A stretch of DNA of 64,000 nucleotides from Aquirufa aurantiipilula (GTDB lineage Bacteria > Bacteroidota > Bacteroidia > Cytophagales > Spirosomataceae): assembly GCF_019923745.1 (NCBI RefSeq), contig NZ_JAANOG010000002.1, positions 186,001-250,000 on the forward strand. Direction: 5' to 3'. Made by a program: the position numbers and the translations under genes. Positions 10,961 through 31,781 of the stretch are shown here, in pieces (the stretch's first letter is position 1; every line of letters begins with the position of its first letter). The notes below the pieces were generated by a model. That model worked only from the letters and a program-made list of their open reading frames with translations. It made no database searches and was not told the DNA's origin.

Positions 10961-11035
10961 ATTTACAATTTACCACTTACTATTCATGATTTTCTTCCCC
11001 TCATTCACCATTTACCATTCACCATTTACAATTAC
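10961..11035. repeat. Heptanucleotide tandem array A (ATTYACM type)
   Basis: Between the GMC gene stop and the hydrolase start, the plus strand reads as consecutive 7-base units such as ATTCACC, ATTTACC, ATTCACC, ATTTACA. The left part is more diverged. On the minus strand the array begins directly after the stop codon of the GMC oxidoreductase gene. It is one of several such arrays in the window. Confidence 0.75.
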
Positions 11036-11036
11036 C

Positions 11037-12755
11037 TTACAGGTTTTTCTTCTTCAACTCCGCCACCGCATAATTCGCAGCACGAGCAGTCAAGGCCATG
11101 TAAGTTAAGGAAGGATTCTGTGTAGAATTAGAAGTCATACTGGCTCCATCTGTCACAAATACATTTTTGCAATGATGTAATTGATTCCATTTATTTAATT
11201 GGGAAGTCTTAGGGTCATTCCCCATGATTACTCCGCCCATTTCATGGATATCTAATCCTGGATTCCAAGTCTTTTTCGGGTTGGCTTTGATGTTTTTAAA
11301 GCCTGCCAGAGTCAGCATCTCCGTCATTTGATCCTGATAATCTTGTTCCATTTTACGGTCATTATCGTCAAAATCTACGTTCAAACGCGCCAATGGTACA
11401 CCCCAGTCGTCTTTTTTACTAGCATCCAACTTGACATAATTGGAATGTTTTGGAATGGTTTCACCCATGAAGTGTGAGCCAACTATCCAATTGCCGTATT
11501 TCTTTTGGAATAAATGGTCTTTCAATTCTTGACCTATACCTTCCTGGTTGCTGATTATTGGTCGACGAGCACTGAAGCCTGCCGCATAACCACGCAAGAA
11601 GTCGGTTTCTTGTTTGAATACATTGCGGAAACGAGGTATATAGCTTCCATTGGGGCGAATACCCTCTGTCTTGCTTTCCAACATGCCTTCATATTCTGCC
11701 GACATTCCCGTATGGAAATTGTGGAAGTGAATGTAATGACCCATCAAGCCATTATCGTTGCCAAGTCCATTCGGGAAACGGTGCGATTTAGAATTTAAAA
11801 GAATCAAATTAGTATTGATGGTTGCCGCATTCAAGAAAATGATTTTGGCATAAAAATGTATTTCTTCTTTTGTTTTGCTGTCGATCACTTTAACCCCTGA
11901 GGCCTTTCCTGATTTTTCATCGTAGATAATGGAATGAACTACGGAATTGGGTCTAAGCGTTAAATTTCCTGTGTTTTGAGCCCAAGGTAGGGTGGAAGCA
12001 TTACTGGAGAAATAACCTCCATAAGGACAACCTCTTTGGCATAAATCCCGTTGCTGGCATTGTGCTCTACCTTGTTTGAAATGTATAGGCTGCGGATCTG
12101 TCAAGTGAGCACAGCGACCAATGATGACGGGTCTACTGCCTTTATAATGCTTTTTCATTTCAGCAGTAAAATGTTTTTCAACGCATGATTGCTCATGGGG
12201 TTTCAAGAATTCACCGTCTGGTAATTGCTCCAAACCATCTTTATTCCCACTAATACCCGCAAAAATTTCCACATGGCTATACCAAGGAGCTAAATCTTGA
12301 TAGGTGATAGGCCAGTGATTGTCAAAACCATCCCTTGCAGGACCTTCAAAGTCATATTTAGACCAGCGCTGAGTTCCACGGGCCCACAATAGGGATTTTC
12401 CTCCTACCTGGTATCCACGAATCCAGTCGAAAGGTTTCTCTTGTATGTAGGGATGCTCTTTATCTTTTACAAAAAAGTGAGACGAATCCTCGTTGAATGC
12501 ATAGCATTTAGTCGCAATGGGATTGGCATCTTTCATTTCTTTGGTCAAAGCCCCCAAATGATCAAATTCCCAAGGCTCTTTCAAGGTAGTTGGGTAATCC
12601 ACGATGTGTTTCACATCCCGGCCGCGCTCTAATACCAATGTTTTTAACCCATTGTCGCACAATTCTTTGGCAGCCCAGCCACCACTGATACCAGAACCTA
12701 CCACAATGGCATCAAAGGTTCTTTGTTTTTTGGAATCTATATTAAAATTAGACAT
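11037..12755 (-). CDS. GMC-family oxidoreductase (FAD-dependent sugar/alcohol dehydrogenase type)
   Basis: A 572-residue flavoprotein. The N-terminal dinucleotide-binding motif VGSGISGGWAAKEL with ERGRDV is followed by the GMC substrate domain and a C-terminal FAD/active-site block (MGGVIMGNDPKTS, VTDGASMTSNSTQNPSLT). A Cys-containing segment (CQQRDLCQRGCPYGG, near residue 230) is the one usually seen in the gluconate/pyranose-dehydrogenase-like branch. The gene has no signal peptide, but its partner 18 bases upstream carries a Tat-like signal. Export as a complex by hitchhiking is therefore plausible (inference). No cytochrome subunit gene is adjacent, so the electron acceptor is unknown. 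Confidence 0.9.
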   Translation of the reverse strand: MSNFNIDSKKQRTFDAIVVGSGISGGWAAKELCDNGLKTLVLERGRDVKHIVDYPTTLKEPWEFDHLGALTKEMKDANPIATKCYAFNEDSSHFFVKDKEHPYIQEKPFDWIRGYQVGGKSLLWARGTQRWSKYDFEGPARDGFDNHWPITYQDLAPWYSHVEIFAGISGNKDGLEQLPDGEFLKPHEQSCVEKHFTAEMKKHYKGSRPVIIGRCAHLTDPQPIHFKQGRAQCQQRDLCQRGCPYGGYFSSNASTLPWAQNTGNLTLRPNSVVHSIIYDEKSGKASGVKVIDSKTKEEIHFYAKIIFLNAATINTNLILLNSKSHRFPNGLGNDNGLMGHYIHFHNFHTGMSAEYEGMLESKTEGIRPNGSYIPRFRNVFKQETDFLRGYAAGFSARRPIISNQEGIGQELKDHLFQKKYGNWIVGSHFMGETIPKHSNYVKLDASKKDDWGVPLARLNVDFDDNDRKMEQDYQDQMTEMLTLAGFKNIKANPKKTWNPGLDIHEMGGVIMGNDPKTSQLNKWNQLHHCKNVFVTDGASMTSNSTQNPSLTYMALTARAANYAVAELKKKNL

Positions 12756-12773
12756 GTCTAGGAAGTATAAAGC

Positions 12774-13277
12774 TTATTGAACAGGAACGCAGCCATGGTA
12801 AAAACCAGGAGCGATGGTATAATTTCTATGTTGTGTTAAAAAGTATTCCGAACTCGTATAGGAGGCGATAGTTAAACCTTTTATCCGTTTGAAAAATTGA
12901 TTGTCTTCTGGCATGCTTGAATTTTGTAGGCCAGTTAACAGGTTGATTTGGTCTTGGCTGCTTAACTGCTGGAAAGTTTTTTGGTGGTTTTTCAAGGCTG
13001 AAGAAACCAATTTTTGTAATCCATTTTGGAATGCCTGTTGGTCTTCTTTGCTCATACAATCTTTTACCATTCGCTCGATGTATAAGTGAGCTCCGATGGT
13101 CTTGGCTCCAGGACTATCGGTTTCCGGAATGATGGCATTGACTACAGCACCTAATAATTCTGTATTAGGTCCTTGAGCTGCTGTAAAGGACTGAGTGTTC
13201 CACTGGTAGGCCCAGCTAGGTAAAGCGGTGGTACCCAAGACCATACTTAGGTTTTTTAAGGCGCTTCTTCTGTTCAT
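12774..13277 (-). CDS. Gluconate 2-dehydrogenase subunit 3-like protein
   Basis: A 167-residue small subunit that normally pairs with a GMC flavoprotein. The N-terminus MNRRSALKNLSMVLG is a twin-arginine-type signal. The mature part has the family pattern LLGAVVNAIIPETDSPGA near residue 40 and a helical remainder ending YHGCVPVQ. It is the first gene of a two-gene operon with the GMC oxidoreductase (18-base gap). In characterised gluconate dehydrogenases this subunit is needed for export and maturation of the catalytic subunit. That role is assumed here from family and context. Confidence 0.88.
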   Translation of the reverse strand: MNRRSALKNLSMVLGTTALPSWAYQWNTQSFTAAQGPNTELLGAVVNAIIPETDSPGAKTIGAHLYIERMVKDCMSKEDQQAFQNGLQKLVSSALKNHQKTFQQLSSQDQINLLTGLQNSSMPEDNQFFKRIKGLTIASYTSSEYFLTQHRNYTIAPGFYHGCVPVQ

Positions 13278-13377: not shown

Positions 13378-14604
13378 TTATTGAGCCGCGCATTTACCTG
13401 CTATAAAACCCGTGGTCCATGCTGCTTGAAAGTTAAATCCACCAGTAATGCCATCGATGTCCATGATTTCTCCCGCAAAAAATAATCCGGGTACTTGTTT
13501 GCTTTCCATGCTTTGAACATGAATTTCAGAAAGGTCTACTCCACCGGCTGTGACAAACTCCTCTTTAAAGGTGGTTTTACCTTGTACTTGATATCGGTCG
13601 TTTAATAAAGTATTGACTAGTTTGTTGATTTGTTTGGGGTTTACTTCATTCCAACGAGAATTCAGGTTGATTTCATTTTTCGTGAGTAAAAAGTTCCAAA
13701 GTCGGGAAGGAATGGGAAAAGGACCATGGTTGGAAATCATTTTACCACCATGGATTTTTTTGGTGTTTTCAAGTTTTTCACGCAGCTCGGATTCTTTGGT
13801 TTCATCTAACCAATTCACTAAAATGGAGAATTGGTAATTGACCTCAGCCAACATGCGCGCGCCCCAAGCAGATAATTGCAAGATAGCTGGTCCACTCATT
13901 CCCCAATGCGTGATTAGCAAGGGACCTTTACCTAGCAGCTTTTGACCTTCAATGCGTACAGTTGCCTTTTCCACGACTAATCCCATAAATTCTTTGATGG
14001 GTTCATCGGGCATATTGAAGGTAAAAAGCGATGGGACAGGTGGGACGATCGGGTGGCCTAGCGCTTCTAACCAATGCAATCCTGTTAATTTAGGCTGGCC
14101 CCCTGTGGTCACGATTACTCGATCCGTGTTGATTGTTTTATCCTTGCTTCCTAATACAAATCCGCCTGATTCTTGCCTTGTAATGGATTCAATTCCATGG
14201 TGTAACAAAATCTCAATGTCGAGCTTTTTGGCTTCTCTCATAAAGCAATCTATGATGCTTTGTGAAGTATTGGAAAGAGGGAATACACAGCCATCTGGAT
14301 AGGTAGTTAGGGCAACTAGACGCTTTTCAAACCATTCCATGGTGGAGGCAGCATCAAACTGTTCAAAGGCCTTTTTCAGAAATTTCTCTCCTCGTGGATA
14401 ATGTTCTGCTAATTTTCTGTTGTTGAATTCTGCATGACAGACATTGCATCTTCCTCCGCCCGATATTTTCACTTTGGCTAAAACATGGGATGTTTTTTCA
14501 AGGATTTGTACGTGGGCATTGGGATTATGCTGCTTAGCAGAAATAGCGGCAAAAAAACCTGCTGCTCCTCCACCAATAATACTGATTCGTAATTCTTTTG
14601 ACAT
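13378..14604 (-). CDS. HI0933/YhiN-family NAD(P)/FAD-dependent flavoprotein
   Basis: A 408-residue cytosolic flavoprotein. GGGAAGFFAAISA at residues about 11-23 is the FAD-binding Rossmann motif. It is followed by the family signatures KVKISGGGRCNV, VVTTGGQPKLTG-like, GPLLITHWGMSGPAIL, and C-terminal VTAGGVDLSEI and FFAGEIMDIDGITGGFNFQAAW. The physiological reaction of this widespread family is not established. The length is normal. It follows the mgtC-like gene on the same strand by 52 bases, most of them a repeat array. Confidence 0.9.
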   Translation of the reverse strand: MSKELRISIIGGGAAGFFAAISAKQHNPNAHVQILEKTSHVLAKVKISGGGRCNVCHAEFNNRKLAEHYPRGEKFLKKAFEQFDAASTMEWFEKRLVALTTYPDGCVFPLSNTSQSIIDCFMREAKKLDIEILLHHGIESITRQESGGFVLGSKDKTINTDRVIVTTGGQPKLTGLHWLEALGHPIVPPVPSLFTFNMPDEPIKEFMGLVVEKATVRIEGQKLLGKGPLLITHWGMSGPAILQLSAWGARMLAEVNYQFSILVNWLDETKESELREKLENTKKIHGGKMISNHGPFPIPSRLWNFLLTKNEINLNSRWNEVNPKQINKLVNTLLNDRYQVQGKTTFKEEFVTAGGVDLSEIHVQSMESKQVPGLFFAGEIMDIDGITGGFNFQAAWTTGFIAGKCAAQ

Positions 14605-14628
14605 AATTTATAGCCTAACAAACGCCCC

Positions 14629-14659
14629 CTAATACCCAATAACTAATCACTCATAACTA
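14629..14659. repeat. Heptanucleotide array, AATAACT variant
   Basis: Plus-strand units AATACCC, AATAACT, AATCACT, CATAACT repeat every seven bases and run into the stop codon of the mgtC-like gene. On the sense strand of that gene the array begins at the stop codon, as with other arrays in the window. The unit differs from the ATTYACM type but keeps the 7-base period. Confidence 0.55.
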
Positions 14660-15283
14660 AAACTCCAGGTGTTTAATCTTATCATTTTTAAGCAATTGGC
14701 TTGCTATCATGTGATGGGCTTTTTCTGATCCTTGAACAGTTAGGTTAAAGGTAAAGTCTTTGCCTGATTTTATTTTCTGAGAATACAATATTTTCATTTT
14801 CAACTTCTTAAATAGAGCCTCCACATGTTTGTAGTCGAATGAGTCTGTATATTCAAATCTCAACGTATATACACGTACGTGATTTAATTTGCTGATGAAA
14901 TTTTGAACCAGGATAAATGCACTTAAAATGAGAATAACAATAGCTGAGGTAAAGCAAGCTAGTAATTCAAAACCAGCTCCTATGGTCATGCCTAGTGCCG
15001 AAACCACCCAAATGGTAGTTGCTGTCGTGATACCTGTCACTCGATCTTTTTCTCTAAATATGACCCCTGCGCCCAGAAAACCTATACCTGTTAGAACATT
15101 GGCAGCAATTCTATCCTGACTGCCTAATCCAATTTTATAAGAAAGTAGCGTGAATATGCAGGATCCTACACAAACCAAAATCATAGTTCTTAATCCAGCG
15201 GATTTGGAACGATACTCCCTTTCCAGGCCAATAACCGCTCCAATGAGGATGGAAAGTAGAATTCGTTCTAGATCAATATACAT
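14657..15283 (-). CDS. MgtC/SapB-family membrane protein
   Basis: A 208-residue inner-membrane protein. Residues about 1-130 carry four to five hydrophobic helices with MgtC hallmarks (GAVIGLEREYRSKSAGLRTM, GIGFLGAGVIFREKDRVTGITTATTIWVVSALG). The C-terminal about 75 residues are a soluble ACT-like alpha/beta domain. Family members are linked to magnesium limitation, ATP-synthase modulation or membrane potential control. The exact role here is unknown. It is monocistronic or leads into the flavoprotein gene. Confidence 0.9.
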   Translation of the reverse strand: MYIDLERILLSILIGAVIGLEREYRSKSAGLRTMILVCVGSCIFTLLSYKIGLGSQDRIAANVLTGIGFLGAGVIFREKDRVTGITTATTIWVVSALGMTIGAGFELLACFTSAIVILILSAFILVQNFISKLNHVRVYTLRFEYTDSFDYKHVEALFKKLKMKILYSQKIKSGKDFTFNLTVQGSEKAHHMIASQLLKNDKIKHLEF

Positions 15284-15605
15284 GCAAAAGTGGATTTTGA
15301 ATTTAAACGAAATTTAAGGCTAAATGTTGAATTTATGGCCATAAAAGAAAATCAACAAGAATCAATATATACTTGATTGGATTAATGGATTTTATGGGAT
15401 TAGGCTACTTTTGTCATATGTTTAAACATAATAAATCTTGGTGCTTAGTTCATATAGCCTCTTTTCGTATTTTTTATTTATTTGGTACTCATTTTCAAAT
15501 ATTTTATTAAACGGTTAGGTTTATATAGTATCAAATTGATAAATTTTAAGCAATATTGCATTCATATTCTACTCCCTTAATAATAATTGATTAAACTTTA
15601 AACTT
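15284..15605. other. Divergent intergenic region, 322 bases
   Basis: Lies between the mgtC-like gene and the DUF6526 gene, so it should hold two promoters. TACTTTTG at 15406-15413 on the plus strand matches the TAnnTTTG -7 box, but no well-spaced TTG precedes it. No gene, repeat or structured RNA was recognised. Confidence 0.5.
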
Positions 15606-16028
15606 ATGTATCAAGATTACGATAACCACACGCGGTATTATCATTTACATCATTTCATTATCATGCCGCTTTCCTTTTTCCTATTTATTTGGACAATTGA
15701 ATTGACTTTAGAGGATCCCGTCGACAATTGGTTGTATTTATTGGTTGGTGCCTTATTTATTTCCATTTCTTTTATTGCTCGTATTTATGCCAATAAAAAT
15801 CAGGATCGAATTATTCGATTGGAGATGAGATTACGGTATTATCAATTAACTCATTTGCCTTTCACGGAAAAGGAAAATTTATTAAGCATCAAACAAATAG
15901 TTGCCCTTCGTTTTGCCAGCGACCAGGAATTATTGGCATTGATTGATGAGGCTATTGCTAAAAACCTTAATCCTAAAGAAATCAAGAAGTCCATTCATGA
16001 TTGGCAAGGTGATTTTATGCGAGTTTAA
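15606..16028 (+). CDS. DUF6526-family small membrane protein
   Basis: A 140-residue protein resembling DUF6526 members of Bacteroidota. It has an N-terminal motif with repeated Tyr/His (YQDYDNHTRYYHLHH) and two hydrophobic helices (about 18-35 and 43-60). The soluble C-terminal part (about 70-140, RLEMRLRYYQLT and RFASDQELLALI) is rich in charged helices. No catalytic motif is apparent and the function is unknown. It is monocistronic and ends in a strong bidirectional hairpin. Confidence 0.8.
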   Translation: MYQDYDNHTRYYHLHHFIIMPLSFFLFIWTIELTLEDPVDNWLYLLVGALFISISFIARIYANKNQDRIIRLEMRLRYYQLTHLPFTEKENLLSIKQIVALRFASDQELLALIDEAIAKNLNPKEIKKSIHDWQGDFMRV

Positions 16029-16045
16029 TTTTTGCTGATTGATAA

Positions 16046-16090
16046 ATAACACAAAAGCTCAGGATTTAAAATCCTGAGCTTTTGTGTTAT
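16046..16090. terminator. Near-perfect 45-base palindromic bidirectional terminator
   Basis: Arms 16046-16067 and 16069-16090 are exact reverse complements around a single central base, with core AAGCTCAGGATTT / AAATCCTGAGCTT. It lies between convergent genes. The arms include T-rich ends, so it can act on either strand. Confidence 0.85.
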
Positions 16091-16137
16091 AAGATAAAAT
16101 CTGTGTATGATTTTTTAGATTTATTCTGTTTGAAAAT

Positions 16138-18789
16138 TTACTTCTTCTGTTCTGATAAGAAAGTGATTAAGGAAGCAAATTCTTCATAGGATAGTTCATT
16201 GGTTAAGCCATCCGGCATCATGGATGTTTCCATTTCTTTTCTTGAACGGATATCGGCCGTTTTGATGCTAGTGATTTGACCTGTAATGTCGCGCATCACA
16301 ATTCTATCAGGAGATTCTGCCGTCACAAAACCCATATGTTCTTTTTTATCTTTAGTAGTCACTAATACCGTAACGAATCCTTGAGAAATAGAGGCATTTG
16401 GTTTCAAGATAGATTCAGCGATTTGCTCACGACTCATAATGGCACCAATTTGCCCCATGAATGGTCCTTTCAAAGTCTCACCACTTTTTAAACTGTGACA
16501 AACCACACAACCTTGTTTGGTAAATAAGGCACGCCCAGTAGCAGGATTTCCTTTGATTTGAGCCATAGCTAACATGACATCTTCAATGGAGGCGTTACCG
16601 ATTTGTCCTTTTTTATTGCGAATAGAAGCCAAGTCAACTTTTGGTTCTTCTTTGGCAAGATTGTTCACGGCAGTTCCTAGTTCGGCAATCTCCATCTGAT
16701 TTTTTTCATTCAAATCTACGAAATAGGCTTTATCGGCGTCATTCGCTTTTTGGAATTCTGCTAATAAAAATTCCTTAATGATTGGGCTAGACTCCCAATC
16801 CACTGTTTTATAATAAGGGCCATGTCCATTTGGTTTGGTACTCCACCAATATTCACCTTCGTAAGGAGCTTCCATTTTGTATAATCGAGCTAGATTCGCT
16901 AACAATTGTTTTTTGAAACTAGGATTGCTGGATTTTTTATAGGCAGCTAATAATCCTTGTACTGCAGCTGGTTGATGCATATAACGCAATGCCCATAAAG
17001 CAATTGTGGAATTTGGACCAGAGATGGCCTTAACACAAGCGTTTACTGCATTCAGTTTTACCAATGCTTGCACTGCTACGTGGGCAGGAATGATGGCCGA
17101 ATTAGGAGTCGCATGCGGACCTTCTTGATCTTTTGGAGGTGCTACAAAGGAGGAAGGAACTTTTACTGCTAATAAGGCAGGAATAGCTTCTGGTTTCCCT
17201 AATCGTCCCAAAGCAATAGCAGCACTAACTTGAATTCTCGGAGAAGGATCTTTTAAGGCTTGAATGAATGGTTGAATTGGAACTAATTTATTTTTGGTTT
17301 TTCTATCCGCCAAGGCTCTAATGGCCAACTCTTTCACGTCTTTATCTGCTAGTAATTTCACCAATTCTAAAATACCCTGTTCATTTGCTGCTTGTGCGAA
17401 TGTGAAGATACCTGCCGAACGAGCATACAAAGGTGCTTTTTTGTCTGCCGCCAATTTCCATGAGATAGAAGCGGTCACTTTTAAGTCCCTATTTAACAAT
17501 TCTTGTTGGGCATTTAAACGTGCTACGGCACTGTTGGATTGTAATAATTTGCCTAATTCATCCGCCGACAAGCTACTAACTTGTGGGAAAGCTTTGTAGG
17601 TCCAGCCTTTAGGAACTGCGCGTACCACAAATCCCTTGTTGGGATTACCCGAATAACCAGCTCCATCCCAAGCGGCTAAATACAAACGGCCAGAGCCATC
17701 CACATCTAAATCAGTAATTTGTTTTAATTTAATGAATGTTTCATCTTTCTGCGTATAACTAGCACCGTCAGGTGTAACGCGATGAATGTATAAAATGCTA
17801 TTTCCCCAATCCGCCATCATGGGCACTTGGTTGTATTTTGCTGGCCATGTAGGTTCATCCATGAATAAAGACCCAGTACCAGATCCACCACCGACATCAA
17901 CCAAGGCAGGAAGAATCTCTTCGGTAAAATGCTTAAACAATAATGGGTAGCCATATTCTCCTGATTGGATATGGTGGCTAAAACGAATATTCCAACCAGC
18001 ACCATCATTGGTATTGTCGCGAGTGAAAATATTCATATAAGGATCAATGGCCACATCGTAAATATTTCTTGTCCCATGGGTATAAACTTCCATTTCGGTT
18101 CCATCTGGTCTTACACGAACAATTCCTCCCCCTAACATGGTTATTTTCTTTCCACTTCTATCGGTGGCATTGTGAAAACCAAAGTCTCCAGCAGCAATGT
18201 AAATCCATCCATCTATTCCCATTCTAATACCATTGGTGGCATGATCAGTCCCTCTGCTTTGTAAAAACTTAGGAGAACTGATATGTTGGATTAAGGGACT
18301 GGAAGGTCCGTCAGCCACGCCATCTTTATTTTTATCTTCAAAAACAACTAAATCCATACCAGTCGCTTTCTTGGTCTCAGGAGAAAATACCGTATGAAGT
18401 ACAAATACTTTGTCTCCTAAAGAAATGATACCTCGTGGATTATCGACCATGGCAAATTTGCTTTGCTGATCTACACGGCCATCATTGTTGGAATCTGTTA
18501 ATTTTAAGATATATCCTTTACCTGGAGTTTTACCCAAAGAACCAATTTGGTCAATACCAACAAATACTTCACCTGTGGCGGCTACGGCTATACAGGCTGG
18601 GCTAGGTGTGATATCTGCTGAAGCAAAATTACTTACTTGAATATCTTGTGTTGGCCACGCAGATGCGTTAGATAATGTATCGACGAGGGCGAACGATTTT
18701 GTACTTTTTTCAGAGAAATGGGGTTGAAAAAACTGAAATCCCCAAAAAAGTAAAAAGGAGTAAATCAAACTGAGTGATAATTTTAACAT
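16138..18789 (-). CDS. PVC-type heme-binding CxxCH / beta-propeller / HEAT-repeat protein
   Basis: About 883 residues from MLKLSLSL, which gives a proper signal peptide; a further ATG upstream would add 13 unlikely residues. Domains in order: signal helix; a six-bladed propeller resembling the planctomycete membrane-bound dehydrogenase domain (DNPRGI, DHATNGIRMGIDGWIYIAAGD, about 70-370); HEAT-like repeats (about 400-620); and a C-terminal c-type heme domain with CVVCH at about 761-765. This architecture is found in putative periplasmic sugar or alcohol dehydrogenases that pass electrons to heme. The substrate is unknown. No partner gene lies beside it. Confidence 0.88.
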   Translation of the reverse strand: MLKLSLSLIYSFLLFWGFQFFQPHFSEKSTKSFALVDTLSNASAWPTQDIQVSNFASADITPSPACIAVAATGEVFVGIDQIGSLGKTPGKGYILKLTDSNNDGRVDQQSKFAMVDNPRGIISLGDKVFVLHTVFSPETKKATGMDLVVFEDKNKDGVADGPSSPLIQHISSPKFLQSRGTDHATNGIRMGIDGWIYIAAGDFGFHNATDRSGKKITMLGGGIVRVRPDGTEMEVYTHGTRNIYDVAIDPYMNIFTRDNTNDGAGWNIRFSHHIQSGEYGYPLLFKHFTEEILPALVDVGGGSGTGSLFMDEPTWPAKYNQVPMMADWGNSILYIHRVTPDGASYTQKDETFIKLKQITDLDVDGSGRLYLAAWDGAGYSGNPNKGFVVRAVPKGWTYKAFPQVSSLSADELGKLLQSNSAVARLNAQQELLNRDLKVTASISWKLAADKKAPLYARSAGIFTFAQAANEQGILELVKLLADKDVKELAIRALADRKTKNKLVPIQPFIQALKDPSPRIQVSAAIALGRLGKPEAIPALLAVKVPSSFVAPPKDQEGPHATPNSAIIPAHVAVQALVKLNAVNACVKAISGPNSTIALWALRYMHQPAAVQGLLAAYKKSSNPSFKKQLLANLARLYKMEAPYEGEYWWSTKPNGHGPYYKTVDWESSPIIKEFLLAEFQKANDADKAYFVDLNEKNQMEIAELGTAVNNLAKEEPKVDLASIRNKKGQIGNASIEDVMLAMAQIKGNPATGRALFTKQGCVVCHSLKSGETLKGPFMGQIGAIMSREQIAESILKPNASISQGFVTVLVTTKDKKEHMGFVTAESPDRIVMRDITGQITSIKTADIRSRKEMETSMMPDGLTNELSYEEFASLITFLSEQKK

Positions 18790-20507: not shown

Positions 20508-20540
20508 ATGATGAATTATAAATGATAAATGATAAATGGG
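20508..20540. repeat. Heptanucleotide array B1
   Basis: Starting at the stop of the AraC-type gene, the plus strand reads AATGATG, AATTATA, AATGATA, AATGATA, AATGGGG in 7-base steps. This is the reverse complement of the ATTTATC/ATTYACM unit. The orientation relative to the preceding gene is the same as in arrays A, D, E and F. Confidence 0.7.
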
Positions 20541-20560
20541 GATAGTTCTATTCTACATGT

Positions 20561-20855: not shown

Positions 20856-20856
20856 T

Positions 20857-22835: not shown

Positions 22836-22836
22836 A

Positions 22837-23649: not shown

Positions 23650-23663
23650 TAAAACTCAAACCC

Positions 23664-23999
23664 ATGCAACGATTTTGTTTGGCCTTAGATCTAGTAGATG
23701 ATCCTGAATTAATCAAGGAATATGAACAATACCATGCGCCAGGAAGTGCTTGGCCGGAAGTAACCCAGCATGACATCGACGCAGGTGTTACAAATATTGA
23801 AATTTTCCGTACGGGAAATCGTATGTTCATGATATTAGAGACCGATGATGCTTTTACTTTTGAGAAAAAAGCGGCCTTTGATACTACTAATCCTAAAATA
23901 GCTGCATGGGAGGAGCTCATGTGGAAATTCCAGAAGCCTTTACCTTGGGCTAAGCCAGGTCAAAAATGGATCTTGATGGATCGTATTTTTAAGTCATAA
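23664..23999 (+). CDS. L-rhamnose/L-fucose mutarotase-type protein (DUF718)
   Basis: A 111-residue protein of the dimeric alpha/beta-barrel family that interconverts sugar anomers. The family pattern is clear: N-terminal RFCLALDLVDDPELIKEYEQYH, central ITNIEIFRTGNRMFMILE-like strand with the conserved His/Tyr region, and PLPWAKPGQKW at the end. It follows the isomerase gene by 14 bases and closes the operon before a hairpin terminator. Anomer conversion would feed the dehydrogenase encoded first in the operon. L-fucose is the best guess over rhamnose because the partner dehydrogenase is of the fucose type. Confidence 0.88.
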   Translation: MQRFCLALDLVDDPELIKEYEQYHAPGSAWPEVTQHDIDAGVTNIEIFRTGNRMFMILETDDAFTFEKKAAFDTTNPKIAAWEELMWKFQKPLPWAKPGQKWILMDRIFKS

Positions 24000-24028
24000 A
24001 AAAAGGCCAGAATTAAATCTGGCCTTTT
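23998..24028. terminator. Bidirectional intrinsic terminator
   Basis: Stem AAAAGGCCAGA / TCTGGCCTTTT around ATTAAA. It follows the mutarotase gene and faces the convergent DUF3500 gene. T-rich sequence on both sides supports action in both directions. Confidence 0.85.
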
Positions 24029-24054
24029 ATTTATTTATTTATTTATTTATTTAT
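24026..24054. repeat. (TTTA)n tetranucleotide microsatellite
   Basis: About seven copies of TTTA immediately right of the terminator. The run overlaps the stop codon of the minus-strand DUF3500 gene, whose last codons are Lys-stop within the repeat. Length variation would change only the 3' end region, not the protein. Confidence 0.85.
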
Positions 24055-25081: not shown

Positions 25082-25110
25082 GTTAATGGTTGAAATAGGT
25101 TGTTTCGTAT

Positions 25111-26220
25111 TTATTTTAAACTTACTCTTTTGCCCGTTTTGACCGCTTCAAAAATGGCTTCGATGATTTTCATGTCCTTTAAGCCTTCTTCACCATCTAC
25201 AGGTATTTTGGGAACTTTGCCATCATGTAAAATAGCGGCAAATTCATCCATTTGAGTTGTTTGATGGGTAATGTGTGGATAGCTCAATTCCCCTTTATTG
25301 GTTTTGGCTTTGATGGGTCCATAACCCGTGGAAGGCATCATTTCGGCAAAACCTTTGGTGCCATTCAAGTAAAATTTATCTAGATTATTGAGTGCATAGG
25401 TAGAAAGGCAGGAAGCAACGGCACCACTGGGGAATCCCATTTGGAATTGTATGGTTTCATCAACCCCATCTTTGAATTTCTCAGGATCAGTTTTGGTTTC
25501 TTGGGCAGTCACCCAAATTGGTTCTTCACCAGTCATGTAGCGTGCACCGTTGATGGAATAGATACCAATATCCATCATCGAGCCTCCTCCCGCTAATTGT
25601 TTATTCAAACGCCATTGCTTGGGATCTCCAATAATAAAACCTGATAAACCTTGAAAGAATAAGATTTTGCCAAATTCACCGGCTTCTCTTCTTTTGATTA
25701 TTTCCAGGGTATTGGGTTCAAAGTGCATACGGTAACCCACCAATAATTTCACTCCTGCTTTTTTGCAAGCGTCAATCATACGCTGAGCATCTTTTACATT
25801 GGTGGCCATGGGTTTCTCACTAATCACATGCTTACCTAAATTGGCAACTTTGATGGCAAACTCAGGGTGACGTAGGTTGGGAGTCATGATGTACACGGCA
25901 TCGATGTCAGGATTATTTTTGATTTTATCCAATTCTTCATACGAAAAGCGATGGCTTTGGGGAACATTGTATTTATCTCCCCATTGATCTAATTTGCTAG
26001 GAGTGCCACTAATCAATGCAGTGATTTTGGCTCTTTTGCAGTTGACCATGGCCTTAGCCACAATATTGGCATATCCACCTAATCCCAATAAGGCTACTTT
26101 TAAGATTGGGCCATCTTCCAAGGCAATGCTATGTTCATGGATTGATTCTGCTGGAGAAAAAAATGGCATAGCGATTAAGGGCGCTGAAACCATTTGAATG
26201 AAATTACGACGAGAACTCAT
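25111..26220 (-). CDS. Gfo/Idh/MocA-family NAD(P)-dependent oxidoreductase, Tat-type signal
   Basis: A 369-residue protein. The N-terminus SSRRNFIQMVSAPLIAMPFF looks like a twin-arginine signal, common among Bacteroidota periplasmic members. The Rossmann domain begins KVALLGLGGYANIVAKAM (about 38-55), with the family EKPMATNV motif (about 140) and a C-terminal dimerisation domain containing GGGSMMDIGIYSINGARYM. Periplasmic members of this family usually carry tightly bound NAD and act on glycosides. The substrate is unknown. It leads an operon with the DUF3500 gene. Confidence 0.88.
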   Translation of the reverse strand: MSSRRNFIQMVSAPLIAMPFFSPAESIHEHSIALEDGPILKVALLGLGGYANIVAKAMVNCKRAKITALISGTPSKLDQWGDKYNVPQSHRFSYEELDKIKNNPDIDAVYIMTPNLRHPEFAIKVANLGKHVISEKPMATNVKDAQRMIDACKKAGVKLLVGYRMHFEPNTLEIIKRREAGEFGKILFFQGLSGFIIGDPKQWRLNKQLAGGGSMMDIGIYSINGARYMTGEEPIWVTAQETKTDPEKFKDGVDETIQFQMGFPSGAVASCLSTYALNNLDKFYLNGTKGFAEMMPSTGYGPIKAKTNKGELSYPHITHQTTQMDEFAAILHDGKVPKIPVDGEEGLKDMKIIEAIFEAVKTGKRVSLK

Positions 26221-26336
26221 GGTCTGTTCAAAATTTAAATAGGTGATTTTTAATGCCTTAAATCTAAAGAAATAAAAGATAAAATGAATGCAATTTTAAT
26301 TTATCCTGAATAATGCGCTTTCTAGGCAATATGAGC

Positions 26337-26344
26337 TATTTTTG
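26337..26344 (+). promoter_or_regulatory. Candidate -7 box of the glycerophosphodiesterase gene
   Basis: TATTTTTG matches TAnnTTTG and lies 33 bases upstream of the ATG at 26377. No clear TTG -33 box is seen at the proper spacing. Confidence 0.35.
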
Positions 26345-26376
26345 TTTTATTAATTATCTAAACCTTGCTTCATATT

Positions 26377-27234
26377 ATGAAAACCTCCTATTTCTTAGGC
26401 TTCTTCTTATGCCTAATTGTGACATCGCTAAACGCTCAAAAAAGCAGCGATTATTTTAAGAAAATTCAAAAATCATACCTTTCTACTCAAGATCCTTTAG
26501 TGATGATTGCAGCCCACCGGGGAGCTCATTTGGAAGAACCGGAAAATTCATTGGCAGCCTTGAAAAAAACCATAGAGCTGGGTGTCGACATCATGGAGTT
26601 GGATGTACGATTTACCAAAGATAGATATATGGTATTGATGCATGATAAGAAAGTGGATAGAACGACAAACGCCAAAGGCTTGGTGTCAGACTTTACTTTT
26701 GAGGAAATTAGAAAATTGCGTTTGAAGCATCATGAGCAAATAACAAATGAACAAATTCCAACTTTGGAAGAAGCATTTAAATTAGCCAAAGGAAAAGTTT
26801 TGATTGACCTTGATATTAAAGATGATGCTACATTGGACTCCATCATTGTTTTGGTGAATCGAATGAAAATGGAGAAAAATTGTTTCTTTTTTGTGTACGA
26901 ACCTGAAGAGGTTGTGATGTTACAAAAGAAGAATAAAAACTTCCAAATCATGATTCGTACAGAAAACGAGGAGGCAGTTAAGAAATTAGTAGCCTCAGGT
27001 GCTAAACCTCAAGCTGTTCATATTGATCCAAGTCATTATACTCCAGAAGTGGTAAAAGCCATTCAGCAAATTCCGGCTCGCGTATGGATAAATGCTTTAG
27101 GAGCGGTGGATTTTAAGGGAAGCCAGCAAGCTGCAGCCTTTGAGGAAGTATTGAAATTTGGTGCCAATATGATTCAAACAGATCAACCTGCCAAATTGAA
27201 GGAATATTTGAAAAGTCAAGGAAAATATAGGTAA
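26377..27234 (+). CDS. Secreted glycerophosphodiester phosphodiesterase
   Basis: About 285 residues from MKTSYFLGFF. A TTG four codons upstream is a poorer start. The signal peptide ends near SLNAQ (about 21). GDPD-family motifs are present: IAAHRGAHLEEPENSLAAL (catalytic His and Glu, near residue 47), DIMELDVRFTKD (metal-binding Glu/Asp), LMHDKKVDRTT (second His) and C-terminal MIQTDQPAKL. It hydrolyses glycerophosphodiesters to glycerol-3-phosphate plus alcohol, probably in the periplasm for phosphate or carbon scavenging. Monocistronic. Confidence 0.9.
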   Translation: MKTSYFLGFFLCLIVTSLNAQKSSDYFKKIQKSYLSTQDPLVMIAAHRGAHLEEPENSLAALKKTIELGVDIMELDVRFTKDRYMVLMHDKKVDRTTNAKGLVSDFTFEEIRKLRLKHHEQITNEQIPTLEEAFKLAKGKVLIDLDIKDDATLDSIIVLVNRMKMEKNCFFFVYEPEEVVMLQKKNKNFQIMIRTENEEAVKKLVASGAKPQAVHIDPSHYTPEVVKAIQQIPARVWINALGAVDFKGSQQAAAFEEVLKFGANMIQTDQPAKLKEYLKSQGKYR

Positions 27235-27441
27235 TAATAAGTTATTAGTTTTAAGGTTGAGGTATAGAGAAAAGAAATGAGAATTTGGGTTTTATATTCA
27301 AGTACAAAAGGATACTTGGCTTAATTATAGGTCCAATACCAAATTCTGTCATTATAATTTCCTACATTACTTATATCCTTATCATTGTTCATAGGATCTA
27401 ATACCAGTCCCTGAATATTAAACACGAATAATTTTCATTCC

Positions 27442-29925
27442 ATGGAAATGCGTCCAGGCTTATCTGATTCAGAAGTAGCACAGCGATTATCGCAATATGG
27501 ATTTAATGAGCTTCAAGGGGCAGATAAAAAAAACATTTGGGTCATTGTGCTGGAGGTAATCCGAGAGCCAATGTTTATCTTGTTGATTTTCAGTAGTTTG
27601 CTGTATATGCTTTTAGGGGATTATCGAGAAGGCTTAATGTTGTTGAGCTTTATCTTGGTCATCATTTTCATTACTTTCTACCAATATCAAAAGACAGAAA
27701 GGGCTTTGGAAAAACTGAAGAACCTTTCCTCGCCTAGGGCCAAGGTCATAAGGAACCAACAGCTTATTCGAATTCCCGGAAGGGAAGTCGTGCCTGGTGA
27801 TATTTTATCCTTATCTGAAGGAGACCGCGTTCCTGCAGATGCTCGTTTGTTGGAAATCAACAATTTGATGGTTGATGAATCCATGCTCACGGGTGAATCC
27901 ATCGCTGTGCAGAAAATGCTGAATACTACTGGAGATATTGGGAATATATTTAGTGGAACGATGGTTGTCCAGGGACGAGCTTTGGCTGAAGTTACTGAAA
28001 CGGGTCAATACACTCAATTGGGGAAAATTGGAGCTAGTTTAAGTAGTCTAAATTCTAGTGAAACGCGGCTTCAAGTTGAAATGAAGAAATTGATTCGTTC
28101 CTTATTATGGATAGGAGTAAGTATCAGCTTAGCCGTTTTTTTAGCATTTTATCTTACCCGAGGAGGCTTAGTCAAGTCGATTCTCAATGCATTATCAACT
28201 TCCATTGCTATTTTACCCGAAGAGTTTCCCGTGGTTTTTACGGTATTTTTAGCCATTGGTGCTTGGCGATTATCCAAAATACAGGTATTAACACGAAATC
28301 CTTCTGCCATTGAAACCTTGGGTTCTACCACGGTTTTATGTAGTGATAAAACTGGGACTATTACTCAGAATAGGATGCAAATAATGCAACTTTTTGTTCA
28401 GGGGGATTTGGTGGATGAATCGGATTTTGAACAAGAAAAAATTAGGCTCTTGCCATTAATCCAAGCGGCAGAATTAGCTTCACATGCCTCTTCTCTGGAT
28501 CCCATGGAAATGGCGATTTTCCAAACCAGACAGAAATTGGAAGGAGAGGCCTCACAGATTTTTCCTTTGTTAAAAGAATATCCACTGAGTACCGATTTAT
28601 TAGCGATGACGCAAGTGTATCATCTAGCAAATGGAAATCAGCAGTGCTTTTCAAAAGGGGCACCTGAGGCAATTTTTGGACTATGTCAATTGAATTCCAA
28701 TGAACGGGCTAAACTGGATGAAGTATTAGAAAATATGGCTTCCAAAGCACTTCGAGTAATAGCCGTTGCTAAAACAGATGAATGGAAGGGAGAATTGCCA
28801 GAGGAACAAAAAAATTTAACTTGTCATTTTTGGGGACTCATTGGTTTGCAAGATCCAATTCGTCCGGAGGTTCCATCAGCGATTCAAGAATGTTTTGATG
28901 CAGGGATTCAAGTAAAAATGATTACCGGAGATTACCCCAAAACAGCCAGTGCGATTGCCCAGCAGATAGGACTTAGTCATGCTAAGGAAGTGCTTTCCGG
29001 GGAAGAATTGCTTCAAATGAGTGATGAGGAGCTGAAACGTTGTATCGGGGATTATACGGTATTTGCTCGGATTAAGCCAGAGCAGAAATTACGTATCGTC
29101 AATGCATTGAAGCAAAACCATGAAGTAGTTGCCATGACTGGCGATGGTGTCAACGATGCCCCAGCCTTAAAAGCAGCTCATATAGGGATAGCCATGGGAA
29201 ATAAAGGGACAGATGTTGCGAGAGAAGCTTCCTCGCTTGTATTATTGGATGACAATTTTGCCTCCATTGTAGCGGCCATACGTTCGGGCAGAAGGATTTT
29301 TGATAACCTTCAAAAGGCCATGTCTTACATCATTTCCATCCATATTCCCATTATTGGATTAACCTTGCTACCGGCAATGTTTGAATTCATGCCCTTACTT
29401 TTGTTACCCTTACACATTGTGTTTTTGGAAATGATAATTGATCCTATCTGTTCCGTGGCATTTGAATCAGAAGTGGAAGAAAGAGCCATAATGTCTCGTC
29501 CACCCCGTGATGCACAAGCTACTTTTTTTGGCATAAATTTATTGTTTAGGTCCATTGCAAGAGGATTATTGTTGTTGATTATGGTCTTGCTTGTTTTCTG
29601 GTTTTCTTGGAAGGAGGGGCATAGCGATAATGAAATTAGAGCCATAAGTTTTTCAGCTCTGATTATAGGAAATATCTTTTTTATCTATTCTAGTTTATCT
29701 AATACTCGCAGTTTTCTCCATGTCTTTGTGGAACGAAACATCATGGCTCTTTTTGTGTCCATAACAGCTATTGTTGTCTTATTGCTGATTGTTTACGTTC
29801 CATATCTCCAAGTTTTATTCAGCTTTGAGTTTCCAGGTTTTGCCCATTTTAAATTAGTACTCTTAGCTTCTTGCAGCCTTTTGGCCATTTTAGAGGTGGT
29901 GAAATGGGGGAAGGGTAAATTGTGA
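27442..29925 (+). CDS. Cation-transporting P-type ATPase (P2-like, unusual M4/M6 motifs)
   Basis: An 827-residue inner-membrane pump. Seen are an N-terminal cation-ATPase domain (LSDSEVAQRLSQYGFNEL), actuator motif TGES at 150-153, phosphorylation motif DKTGT with Asp302, nucleotide-domain KGAPEAIF, hinge TGDGVNDAPALK and about ten membrane helices. M4 reads PEEFP (259-263) instead of the PEGLP/PEGLT of Ca pumps. M6 reads FLEMIIDP where Ca pumps have NLVTD. The transported ion therefore cannot be assigned by simple analogy. It belongs to the calcium/proton-type branch by overall layout. Monocistronic, with a heptad array at its stop. Confidence 0.9.
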   Translation: MEMRPGLSDSEVAQRLSQYGFNELQGADKKNIWVIVLEVIREPMFILLIFSSLLYMLLGDYREGLMLLSFILVIIFITFYQYQKTERALEKLKNLSSPRAKVIRNQQLIRIPGREVVPGDILSLSEGDRVPADARLLEINNLMVDESMLTGESIAVQKMLNTTGDIGNIFSGTMVVQGRALAEVTETGQYTQLGKIGASLSSLNSSETRLQVEMKKLIRSLLWIGVSISLAVFLAFYLTRGGLVKSILNALSTSIAILPEEFPVVFTVFLAIGAWRLSKIQVLTRNPSAIETLGSTTVLCSDKTGTITQNRMQIMQLFVQGDLVDESDFEQEKIRLLPLIQAAELASHASSLDPMEMAIFQTRQKLEGEASQIFPLLKEYPLSTDLLAMTQVYHLANGNQQCFSKGAPEAIFGLCQLNSNERAKLDEVLENMASKALRVIAVAKTDEWKGELPEEQKNLTCHFWGLIGLQDPIRPEVPSAIQECFDAGIQVKMITGDYPKTASAIAQQIGLSHAKEVLSGEELLQMSDEELKRCIGDYTVFARIKPEQKLRIVNALKQNHEVVAMTGDGVNDAPALKAAHIGIAMGNKGTDVAREASSLVLLDDNFASIVAAIRSGRRIFDNLQKAMSYIISIHIPIIGLTLLPAMFEFMPLLLLPLHIVFLEMIIDPICSVAFESEVEERAIMSRPPRDAQATFFGINLLFRSIARGLLLLIMVLLVFWFSWKEGHSDNEIRAISFSALIIGNIFFIYSSLSNTRSFLHVFVERNIMALFVSITAIVVLLLIVYVPYLQVLFSFEFPGFAHFKLVLLASCSLLAILEVVKWGKGKL

Positions 29926-29946
29926 ATTATAAATTGTAAATTATGG
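29922..29946. repeat. Heptanucleotide array D
   Basis: Beginning at the stop codon of the P-type ATPase gene, the plus strand reads TGTGAAT, TATAAAT, TGTAAAT, TATGGAT in 7-base steps. This is the same orientation relative to the upstream gene as array B1. It faces a diverged array at 30118-30163 across the gap. Confidence 0.6.
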
Positions 29947-30094
29947 ATGTCAGGTTTTGAATTTCAGTTGATACATGAATTGCTTGTTGGTTGAGTGTTA
30001 CATGTTTAGAGCTTACTAAATGTTTGGTAGAGCAAATGGATTCCTCGTTTGATATTATGTTGCCAAACCGAATTCTTTAGTTTTATTTACTTAA

Positions 30095-30117
30095 CTTAAA
30101 TTAAATTAAATTAAATT
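30095..30117. repeat. TTAAA pentanucleotide run
   Basis: Four consecutive TTAAA/TAAAT units in the leader upstream of the multicopper oxidase gene, next to a heptad-like stretch. A low-complexity leader with no other signal seen. Confidence 0.6.
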
Positions 30118-30163
30118 CTCAGTAACTTATACCTAAAAACTAACATTAACTGCTAATAACTGA
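30118..30163. repeat. Diverged heptad-like array before the multicopper oxidase gene
   Basis: Repeated CTAA/AACT words (ACTTATACCTAAAAACTAAC and AATAACTG) recur at about seven-base intervals up to the ATG at 30166. It resembles the AATAACT variant at 14629-14659 and faces array D. The register is less clean than in the other arrays. Confidence 0.4.
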
Positions 30164-30165
30164 AT

Positions 30166-31638
30166 ATGAAACATTCATTCTCTTTGCTGGGTCTTGCGCT
30201 ATTATTGGGTGCTTGTACCAAAGAAATCGCAACTACTCCGAGCACAAGTACCACAACAAGCCCTAATACCACCAGTACTAGCTACAATGATCTTTGGATT
30301 CCACCTACTTTAACAGGAACGACCTTTAATTTAAGTTTGGATAAATCAACTAAGCAGTTTTTTTCGGGAAGTGTGACAAATACCTATGGGTATAATGGGG
30401 CTAATTTTTGGGGTCCAACCTTGATCATGAACAAAGGAGATCAAGTTCAAATTAATGTGAAAAATAATTTAAGTGAAACCACCACCAGTCATTGGCATGG
30501 ATTTCATATTCCAGCTGAAATGGATGGAGGCCCTCACCAAGAGGTATTAGCAGGTACCACATGGAGTCCCAATTTTAAGGTCATGAATAATGCGGCTACT
30601 TATTGGTATCATCCTCATTTACATGAATTGACAGCAAAACAACTTTCCTTGGGCGCAGGAGGATTAATTATTATCAAAGATCCAGAGGAAGCAGCCTTGG
30701 CGCTTCCAAGAACTTATGGGGTAGATGATATTCCCCTTGTTTTGACGAGTAGGAAATTTACCAGTACCAATGTCATTGATTATTCTACAGCCTATGGAGA
30801 TTATTTATTGACCAATGGGACACTCAATGCCCAAATGAATCTTCCTAAACAAATGGTTCGTTTACGTATTTTAAATGCCGAAATAGAAAGAGGCTATAAC
30901 TTAGGTTTTTCTGATAATAGAACTTTTTACATCATTGCCAATGATGGGGGCCTATTGGAAACCCCTGTCCCAGTAACAAGAGTGAAATTGGTAGTGGGAG
31001 AACGCATCGAAATTTTATTGGATTTGAGTAAAGATGCAGCGGGTAGTTCACTGGATTTTAAAGCGTATAATTCCAATTTGCCAGCAGGTTTTGGAGGAAG
31101 TGAGCCCGCTCAAAGTGGACAATTTGGTAGTCTGCTCAACAATAAAGATTTTAACCTCTTGCGTATCAATGTAGCGGCTGCAAGCAGTAATCCAATAACA
31201 GCGGTCCCAAGCAGTTTGGTGAAACAAACTACATTGTCAGCTTCTGAAGTTACGAATAGTCGGATATTGATGGTGACAGGTGGTCAACCGAATGGACCCG
31301 CCTTTTCATTCAATAATGTAACATATGATCATCAAACCATTAACCAGACCATTAAGCTTAATGCGGTAGAGAAATGGACTATCATGAACAACAATATTTT
31401 TGGTCATTCATTTCATATCCATGATGTGCAATTTAAAATTATCTCTAGAAGTTCGGGAACCGTAGGGATTCATGAGAGTGGATGGAAAGATACCGTCTAT
31501 TTACCCGTGGGAGAATCTGTAACTTTCCTGGCTAAATTTGACGATTTCACCTCGACTAAACATCCATTCATGTACCATTGTCATTTTGCAAACCATGAAG
31601 ATGCAGGCATGATGGGGCAGTTTTTGGTTATACCTTAA
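30166..31638 (+). CDS. Multicopper oxidase lipoprotein (CueO/bilirubin-oxidase-like)
   Basis: A 490-residue lipoprotein. The lipobox LGAC has Cys17, followed by a Ser/Thr-rich linker (about 20-40). Three cupredoxin domains carry the copper ligands: HWHGFH (109-114), WYHPHLH (147-153), HSFHIHD (about residue 420) and H471-C472-H473 with H477 and Met482 as the likely axial type-1 ligand. All four copper motifs are intact. A Met axial ligand fits a copper-efflux/cuprous-oxidase or phenol-oxidase role on the cell surface. The substrate is not determined. No copper-efflux genes are adjacent. Monocistronic, flanked by repeat arrays on both sides. Confidence 0.92.
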   Translation: MKHSFSLLGLALLLGACTKEIATTPSTSTTTSPNTTSTSYNDLWIPPTLTGTTFNLSLDKSTKQFFSGSVTNTYGYNGANFWGPTLIMNKGDQVQINVKNNLSETTTSHWHGFHIPAEMDGGPHQEVLAGTTWSPNFKVMNNAATYWYHPHLHELTAKQLSLGAGGLIIIKDPEEAALALPRTYGVDDIPLVLTSRKFTSTNVIDYSTAYGDYLLTNGTLNAQMNLPKQMVRLRILNAEIERGYNLGFSDNRTFYIIANDGGLLETPVPVTRVKLVVGERIEILLDLSKDAAGSSLDFKAYNSNLPAGFGGSEPAQSGQFGSLLNNKDFNLLRINVAAASSNPITAVPSSLVKQTTLSASEVTNSRILMVTGGQPNGPAFSFNNVTYDHQTINQTIKLNAVEKWTIMNNNIFGHSFHIHDVQFKIISRSSGTVGIHESGWKDTVYLPVGESVTFLAKFDDFTSTKHPFMYHCHFANHEDAGMMGQFLVIP

Positions 31639-31640
31639 TT

Positions 31641-31698
31641 GAATTCTACATGATAGATTATAAATTATAAATGGTGAATTGTGAATGGTAAATAGATA
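31641..31698. repeat. Heptanucleotide array E
   Basis: Just after the multicopper oxidase stop, plus-strand units read AATTATA, AATGGTG, AATTGTG, AATGGTA, AATAGAT in 7-base steps. It forms an imperfect inverted pair with array F at 31736-31781, across a 37-base spacer. Confidence 0.75.
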
Positions 31699-31735
31699 GA
31701 GAAGTTTTGGTATTTTCAATCAGAAAATCTCATCT

Positions 31736-31781
31736 CATTCACAATCCACCATTTACAATTCATCATTCATAAATTGTAATT
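31736..31781. repeat. Heptanucleotide array F
   Basis: Units ATTCACA, ATCCACC, ATTTACA, ATTCATC, ATTCATA run up to the stop codon of the minus-strand kbl gene. On the sense strand of kbl the array starts right after the stop, in the same orientation as array E after the oxidase. Confidence 0.75.

Follow-up and report, generated by a model that had tools for sequence, protein, structure and literature searches.

Degenerate seven-base arrays at gene ends of Aquirufa aurantiipilula: several unit families under one strand polarity

Short tandem heptamers lie between the genes of filamentous cyanobacteria, where they are known as short tandem repeats of the STRR type. Here we describe degenerate tandem arrays of seven-base units between genes of Aquirufa aurantiipilula (Bacteroidota, order Cytophagales), found in a 64,000-nucleotide stretch of its genome (the window; NCBI RefSeq GCF_019923745.1, contig NZ_JAANOG010000002.1, positions 186,001 to 250,000) and followed through the source genome and its relatives. 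The same placement is described, in the portions of the paper available, for the mostly intergenic heptameric GGGAATC and GGGGA(C/T)T repeats of Xanthomonas and Nostoc, whose G-rich strand lies mostly within 50 bp past stop codons on the coding strand and before start codons on the non-coding strand (Rehm et al. 2015, PMC4692102). Some of these repeats overlap stops and few lie between divergent open reading frames (ORFs), while close inverted pairs number 70 and 75 in two Xanthomonas genomes and are few in Nostoc. Rehm et al. emphasise quadruplexes, the repeats favouring four units, and transcripts are reported to start or stop more often at quadruplex-forming repeats.

The available text of MacGregor 2015 (PMC4679880) describes TAACTGA direct repeats in Beggiatoaceae, cyanobacteria and five Bacteroidetes. 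Most lie shortly before start codons, some overlap stops, and 7-base insertions or deletions (indels) occur between close Cyanothece strains; a polymerase-slippage idea is cited there for the number 7. According to the part of Kaasalainen et al. 2015 available (PMC4476775), the P6b stem-loop of the Nostoc tRNA-Leu intron has a stem made from either of two degenerate heptamer motifs (TDNGATT or NNTGAGT); stems of one class have repeatedly given way to the other, and some length changes amount to one 7-base repeat. A sequence-only reading of the window knew of no matching description beyond STRR, a statement superseded by the placement rule published for Xanthomonas and Nostoc and by the TAACTGA heptamers; literature searches for Aquirufa intergenic repeats and for the repeat-unit sequences found no paper. 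Heptamer repeats of this placement are already known, and what Aquirufa adds is degenerate, mirrored arms of several unit families, mostly where no ordinary terminator is found. Agreement in family between arms, family change between orthologous gaps and scarcity of terminators are features that were not met in the available text of PMC4692102.

The seven-base period and its polarity

Array detection was run on 1.19 Mb of the source genome (G000; 3.08 Mb in 70 contigs), and geometry was determined on a 2.79-Mb sample comprising this part, five close relatives and G010; no arrays were detected in the G010 portion. The five close relatives, with 93-97% identity in the kbl-like protein, stand apart among the 38 genus genomes searched, source included. 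Among named records, the window's kbl-like protein has its best match, at 96% identity, in Aquirufa nivalisilvae 59G-WUEMPEL. Genes were called with our own ORF caller (at least 80 amino acids, first start codon, longest first), and distances to starts are therefore rough. Arrays containing N, less than 40% intergenic or without a called gene on both sides, as well as one with equal G and C, were dropped before the geometry counts. Orthologous gaps of different species enter several tests as separate cases.

The best local lag-7 score of each of nine window segments read as arrays was compared with 2000 dinucleotide shuffles of that segment. It was found that eight lie far above the shuffles, with the score reached in at most 5 of 2000, bearing out the proposed arrays apart from 30118-30163, which is not established as one (Table 1). 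A lag scan of 390 kb of the window's contig (C24; 273 intergenic stretches, only those of at least 30 bases tested) gave 12 strong lag-7 windows in intergenic DNA against a shuffle mean of 0.0 (ten shuffles) and none in coding DNA. Apart from lag 7, just lags 14 (6 windows) and 21 (4 windows) were raised. The check that had been proposed for all intergenic DNA covered 1.19 of 3.08 Mb; neither of the two outcomes named in advance as refuting occurred, as lag 7 lies above shuffles and the orientation is kept in the sampled part. Furthermore, three exact ATTYAYM units in a row give 66 matches in the whole source genome and the reversed pattern gives none, such pattern counts being overlapping matches rather than numbers of arrays. 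The geometry sample retained 77 intergenic arrays as against 7 lying mostly within ORFs. Boundary arrays hold 3.6 to 18.1 units, with a detection floor that conceals shorter ones. After masking of the arrays no clear residual lag-7 signal was seen, and a pervasive weak period is not supported. Both the existence of the arrays and their placement are solid observations.

The period extends beyond the genus. In 80 loci of named records (542 kb) we detected 19 intergenic arrays at lag 7, compared to 2, 0, 6, 2 and 3 at lags 5, 6, 8, 9 and 10, and some of the lag-7 arrays differ greatly in base composition. Period-7 arrays of very different composition occur in Sphingobacterium alkalisoli, a Cytophagales metagenome-assembled genome and Fulvivirga imtechensis (L207, L237 and L251), which suggests that the period outlasts a change of composition.

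The strand richer in G than in C is called the G-form here, and a boundary array is one that lies no more than 30 bases from a called gene. The G-form strand runs from the gene into the gap in 59 of the 61 boundary arrays irrespective of gene direction (48/49 at stops, 11/12 at starts), in 67 of all 76 scored arrays at any distance and, by a hand tally, in 9/10 boundary arrays of source-genome loci L001-L030 not counted before. For the window, both the position and the orientation claimed for five arrays at the stops of the GMC, AraC-type, P-type ATPase, multicopper oxidase and kbl-like genes are confirmed; by lag 7 they begin from 20 bases before to 8 bases after the stop-codon end. The wider claim of a fixed orientation to stop codons is consistent with the sample but too narrow, given the opposite-sense arrays at starts: stop-codon orientation is one side of a gap-level rule for both gap ends. 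The two ends of a gap thus tend to mirror each other, as inverted-repeat ends.

The Aquirufa arrays accordingly resemble the Xanthomonas and Nostoc repeats in unit length, intergenic location and G-rich strand placement at both stops and starts, as far as the available text of PMC4692102 describes these. The repeats described there lie mostly between aligned ORFs and favour no chromosomal region, whereas the Aquirufa arrays are unevenly spread and densest in convergent gaps (0.87 per kb of gap, compared to 0.31 and 0.39 in the two tandem classes and 0.14 in divergent gaps). In contrast to a single quadruplex-forming unit, Aquirufa has at least three degenerate families, and only 2/61 boundary arrays contain four GGG tracts. 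GGG is absent from 46 of the 61, and 45 of those 46 obey the polarity; quadruplexes therefore cannot be the general cause of the rule. With the TAACTGA system, as seen in the parts of PMC4679880 available, Aquirufa shares heptamer arrays in intergenic DNA and one unit close in sequence (CTAATAA of the third family below). That system consists of an exact unit, related heptamers being seldom repeated, while the Aquirufa units are other heptamers and 49/61 boundary arrays sit at stops. The eight Microcystis TAACTGA sets sampled between stops share a single orientation, with no mirror rule as in Aquirufa.

The gene-side edge of the arrays is sharp, with an interquartile range of -7 to +3 bases. 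A stop codon in phase lies inside 21 of the 49 stop-side arrays (7/12 with TTAGKKW, 10/23 with KRTRAAT and 4/14 with GWAGAAT units), and TAG is the stop in 13/26 genes ending in the latter or the TTAGKKW family against 405/2307 overall. C-termini are mostly kept with or without an array: 33/40 distinct orthologue pairs agree in seven or more of their ten C-terminal residues (41/51 rows before 11 rows showing the same pair from the other side were set aside, counted by hand). In a few genes the last codons have been rewritten by arrays, differently in two species. Our reading is that arrays advance as far as the coding sequence and a little way inside it before selection halts them. Stop-codon supply was considered as the cause of orientation, as G-form units contain stops, and was rejected: the polarity holds at starts too, and GGGAATC is placed likewise in Xanthomonas (PMC4692102) though, by our own reading of the unit, it has no stop in any frame. 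It is kept solely as a contributing filter.

Within the source genome, 37 arrays lie in 790 kb of contigs C24 and C11, the latter carrying dnaA. No lag-7 arrays were detected in 400 kb sampled from two others (G000:C34:1-240000 and C41:1-160000), where gap content predicts 11.6; this zero is less extreme than it appears because arrays come in pairs, and pattern matches exist on both contigs outside the sampled parts. An effect of replication position was rejected, as G007, a closed genome, has 29 scattered pattern matches with a void at ~1.11 to 1.85 Mb and no simple gradient.

Unit families, mirrored arms and change between species

Three unit families were distinguished, each named here by both strands: F1 (ATTYAYM/KRTRAAT), F2 (ATTCTNC/GWAGAAT) and F3 (CTAATNN/TTAGKKW), and further variants occur. 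Stop-side arrays were assigned to the best of the three, with some poor fits (down to 0.52). Variation of the unit at constant period, as noted from the window, is thereby upheld, with two corrections: 20561-20616 had been given as an ATTYAYM array and belongs to F2, and of two supposed AATAACT variants 14629-14659 is an array of F3, while 30118-30163 is not significant.

Species show unit-family dialects. Overlapping matches to three units in a row of F1/F2/F3 number 66/46/46 in the source genome, 2/208/78 in G016, 42/198/8 in G033, 86/67/41 in G020, 40/5/38 in G024 and 48/0/0 in G005. Reversed-pattern controls for F1 and F2 are 0 in the source genome; those for F3 are 12 there, 16 in G024, 12 in G020 and 12 in G016, and F1 controls above 0 occur in some other genomes, perhaps stemming from yet other heptamers. 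Many of the remaining genus genomes have no match to any of the three, and F1 was matched in 61/296 sampled genomes of the phylum. Long uniform TTAGGGA arrays of ~14 to 17 units occur at G000:C70:23460-23557, G024:C25:300359-300477 and G020:C17:755274-755371, unlike the degenerate arrays found elsewhere. A uniform AAGAATC array of ~6 units at G000:C24:291231-291275 has a degenerate trace in the orthologous gap of G020, and the unit was not seen in that gap of G024 or G033; it is possibly a fresh expansion.

One idea is that the arrays are binding sites, in which one protein (cold-shock, S1-like or another OB-fold) would read the heptad register in an untranslated region at the 3' or 5' end, much as MacGregor suggested in the case of TAACTGA. 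A fixed sense relative to genes, with the G-form after stops and the C-form before starts, would suit such a protein, and Csp-like proteins have been suggested to bind heptamer repeats (available text of PMC4679880). Units nevertheless vary within one genome and between some orthologous gaps, and those of other Bacteroidota differ in composition, which is hard to reconcile with a sequence-specific binder; we regard this explanation as improbable.

Opposite ends of a gap agree in family. For 27/47 arms, at least two in-register complementary units of the same family are present at the opposite gap end (0.19 expected from array-free gaps), compared to 3/47 arms with another family there; Xanthomonas likewise has inverted pairs, as reported in the available text of PMC4692102. 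In all 11 gaps with at least three in-register units per end, three of them orthologous copies of one gap, both ends carry the same family. A permutation of arm agreement, which ignores species dialects, gave a mean of 3.9 and reached 11 in 1/10000.

Arms keep to the same gene ends across sister species, and their family is usually kept too but can differ. Gap C24:79253-79464 has F3 at both ends in the source genome and F2 in G016, again at both ends; C24:260975-261055 holds an F3 trace in the source genome and F2 at both ends in G033. By eye, the gap after kbl (L048-L053) contains F1 arms in G000, a weak F3-like array in G024, a hairpin plus a CTAATCC arm in G016, an F2 array with F3-like units in G033, F3 arms in G020 and a plain terminator-like hairpin in G005. 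Like these arms, the Nostoc P6b stem has 7-base classes swapped as a whole, but this concerns a single intron stem rather than dispersed gaps, on the available text of PMC4476775. Lengths were compared with G020, whose median protein identity of 94.8% is the highest among the relatives. Of the indels, 8/24 in six array gaps and 17/207 in 60 other gaps span a multiple of 7 bases (p 0.0014), in a test divided by relative after a weak pooled outcome.

Two further explanations concern the paired arms. Repetitive extragenic palindromes and bacterial interspersed mosaic elements (REP/BIME) have a conserved palindromic core mobilised by a REP-associated tyrosine (RAYT) transposase. An element of this kind, located at gene 3' ends, would be extragenic, rich in convergent gaps, paired in inverted orientation and present or absent from genome to genome, much as the arrays are. 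The arrays sit hard against the stop, however, and inspection of the species-compared gaps by eye revealed no shared core beyond the heptamers, no loop comparison or transposase search being made; we hold such an origin to be highly improbable.

Break repair is the other: the two 3' ends flanking a break would gain G-form heptamers and then be joined, so that arrays mark rearrangement joints. This could account for the G-form strand entering the gap from both sides, and for the oxidase gene lying beside kbl in G000 and G005 only among the relatives sampled, with the ATPase gene there in G033. Array gaps are, however, barely commoner at non-conserved adjacencies (11/102 gap-by-relative comparisons against 23/314 conserved ones), a stretch inside gap 20508-20856 is similar, by eye, in species with and without arrays, and Xanthomonas repeat loci are reported to be more stable (available text of PMC4692102). 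With so little support from the conserved-adjacency test the rearrangement-joint reading was rejected, and it now seems far-fetched.

Terminators and the origin of the arms

Terminator-like hairpins are scarce in array gaps. Among convergent gaps of 60-450 bases they occur in 4/22 with arrays, three of these four being one gap in three species, compared to 75/131 without (Fisher p 0.0009). When the array-free gaps are restricted to four array-rich contigs and all 22 array gaps are retained, the comparison is with 38/65 (p 0.0012). The corresponding figures are 0/20 against 80/392 in tandem gaps and 0/6 against 10/274 in divergent gaps. These counts come from a finder loosened once, since its initial version (1/22 against 23/131 convergent) missed visible terminators. 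In window 14000-33900 a terminator tool gave 13 matches (17.7 expected from shuffles), none within an array gap. By these counts array gaps mostly lack the GC-rich stem with a U-run behind it that marks an intrinsic terminator. In the kbl/oxidase gap, arrays are absent from G005, which has a GC-rich hairpin and then TTTT; the window carries F1 arms there and no such hairpin. Terminator scarcity and this swap fit either arms replacing terminators or arrays becoming established solely in gaps that are free of a terminator's constraint. Unusual folding energy was rejected as a hallmark: the 18 gaps with both forms have a median z of -4.8 compared to -1.5 in 80 array-free gaps, and the 20 convergent gaps among the latter reach -4.7.

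From the period, the polarity, the agreement of arm families, the family differences that some gaps show from one sister species to another and the rarity of ordinary terminators in array gaps we infer how the arms may form and what they may do. We tentatively favour a reading in which arms would be made and renewed by 7-base slippage and template switching during replication, bounded by coding sequence, and kept at 3' ends in place of terminators. The arrays would be arms of extragenic inverted repeats, that is potential hairpins, with one degenerate 7-base family per arm placed hard against coding sequence. Arm length would change through 7-base slippage, and template switching across the hairpin would let one arm act as template for the other. 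Outward growth toward genes would be halted solely by selection on coding sequence, which could explain the sharp gene-side edge and the frequent in-phase stop codon. Such hairpins would persist chiefly at 3' ends, as a stand-in for an intrinsic terminator or a 3'-protecting hairpin. There are precedents, in the parts of the sources available, for template switching generating hairpins (PMC8794818) and homogenising inverted-repeat arms (PMC8604942).

Slippage and fold-back copying might also act with no function attached, as a mutational by-product that fills stretches free of promoters and terminators and is erased where something useful lies. The discreteness of the arrays, with no residual lag-7 signal elsewhere, would follow naturally, as would turnover and dialects, the sharp halt at coding edges, the rewritten last codons of some genes and the scarcity in divergent relative to convergent gaps. 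Loss of the hairpin that G005 has in the kbl/oxidase gap would, however, be costly unless arrays replace it, the uniform polarity at nearly every edge demands a cause, and the array-free C34 and C41 samples fit poorly, a contrast softened by the pairing of arrays. We consider a pure by-product possible if somewhat unlikely.

Several observations weigh against slippage and template switching with retention at 3' ends. No partner was detected for 20/47 arms, and some short gaps are single-form throughout. Pairing between matched arms is not clearly stronger than between mismatched ones from one family (p 0.078), so that direct copying from arm to arm is not proven and the agreement is one of family, not exact sequence. 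By our own reading, 9/11 orthologous stop-side arrays present in both species retain their family, and a clean double family switch was seen at one gap only. Pooled multiple-of-7 indels are weakly raised (19/225 compared to 80/1558), and the sister-species comparison that had been proposed, positive against G020, shows no excess against G024 (5/44 in array gaps, 21/296 in others), G033 (0/24, 18/211) or G016 (4/64, 40/412), where array gaps are hard to align. The similar stretch in the tandem gap 20508-20856 sits between the arms and is presumably a promoter, which would put the arms on different transcripts. Array hairpins inspected were without a U-run, and array gaps fold no stronger than ordinary convergent gaps; terminator scarcity could mean merely that these gaps are unconstrained. 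Finally, slippage and template switching do not account for the polarity itself.

A more general proposal is that one strand-polarised, unit-indifferent period-7 process, common to Bacteroidota, Xanthomonas and cyanobacteria, continually builds and rewrites hairpin arms from the gap interior to the last base that the adjacent genes tolerate. Its products would serve as replaceable 3'-end hairpins instead of intrinsic terminators, and G-quadruplexes and stop codons would then not be causes but would follow from the make-up of particular units. We think this unlikely.

Arrays of the window and their significance

The individual segments are collected in Table 1. Gene types are by Pfam, except that kbl is the name first given to a gene which Pfam assigns to the class I/II aminotransferases.

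Table 1. Seven-base arrays in the window; shuffle counts refer to the segment in brackets where its limits differ from those of the feature.
Feature	Start	End	Strand	Shuffles of 2000 reaching lag-7 score	Context
ATTYAYM array	10961	11035	-	0	Fills gap between BD-FAE-type esterase start and GMC oxidoreductase stop
Third-family array (CTAATNN on +, TTAGKKW-type on -)	14629	14659	-	2	Directly past stop of MgtC-family gene 14657-15283
Left arm, KRTRAAT array	20508	20540	+	0	Begins at stop codon of AraC-type (HTH_18) gene
Inner array, second family (ATTCTNC on +, GWAGAAT on -)	20561	20616	-	0	Within gap 20508-20856
Right arm, ATTYAYM array	20811	20855	-	0	Ends at most 5 bases from aldo/keto reductase start
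KRTRAAT array	29906	29946	+	0 (29922-29946)	Overlaps P-type ATPase stop codon; TGA in phase inside array
Claimed AATAACT array	30118	30163	-	156	Upstream of multicopper oxidase start; lag 7 not above shuffles, TAACTG motifs present
Left arm, KRTRAAT array	31641	31698	+	0	Follows multicopper oxidase stop
Right arm, ATTYAYM array	31736	31788	-	5 (31736-31781)	Reaches stop of kbl-like gene

The array beside the GMC gene has its best stretch at 11002-11033 and its G-form directed away from that gene. Its gap (10963-11036) is of a single form throughout with no opposite arm; in the orthologous gap an array is present in G024 and absent in G016 and G005. The gap orthologous to that of the MgtC-family gene holds a long CTAATCC array in G016. 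Left and right arms of gap 20508-20856 are identical in family, and those of gap 31639-31781 fold together as a long hairpin (-42.6 kcal/mol, z -6.0). A search of window 10000-33000 for Rfam families at gathering score gave 0 matches. Other short repeats in the window are TTTA x7 beside a terminator-like hairpin (24026-24054) and, ahead of the multicopper oxidase gene, TTAAA x5 (30091-30117).

Bacterial heptamer repeats have so far been explained unit by unit, through a quadruplex, a binding protein or polymerase slippage. At least three mostly non-quadruplex families under one placement and polarity in one genome separate the general rule from the particular unit, and the placement rule does not need G-quadruplexes. 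Furthermore, sister Aquirufa species with different families at the same gene ends provide natural experiments on arm formation, and the scarcity of terminators in array gaps offers a direct test of function.

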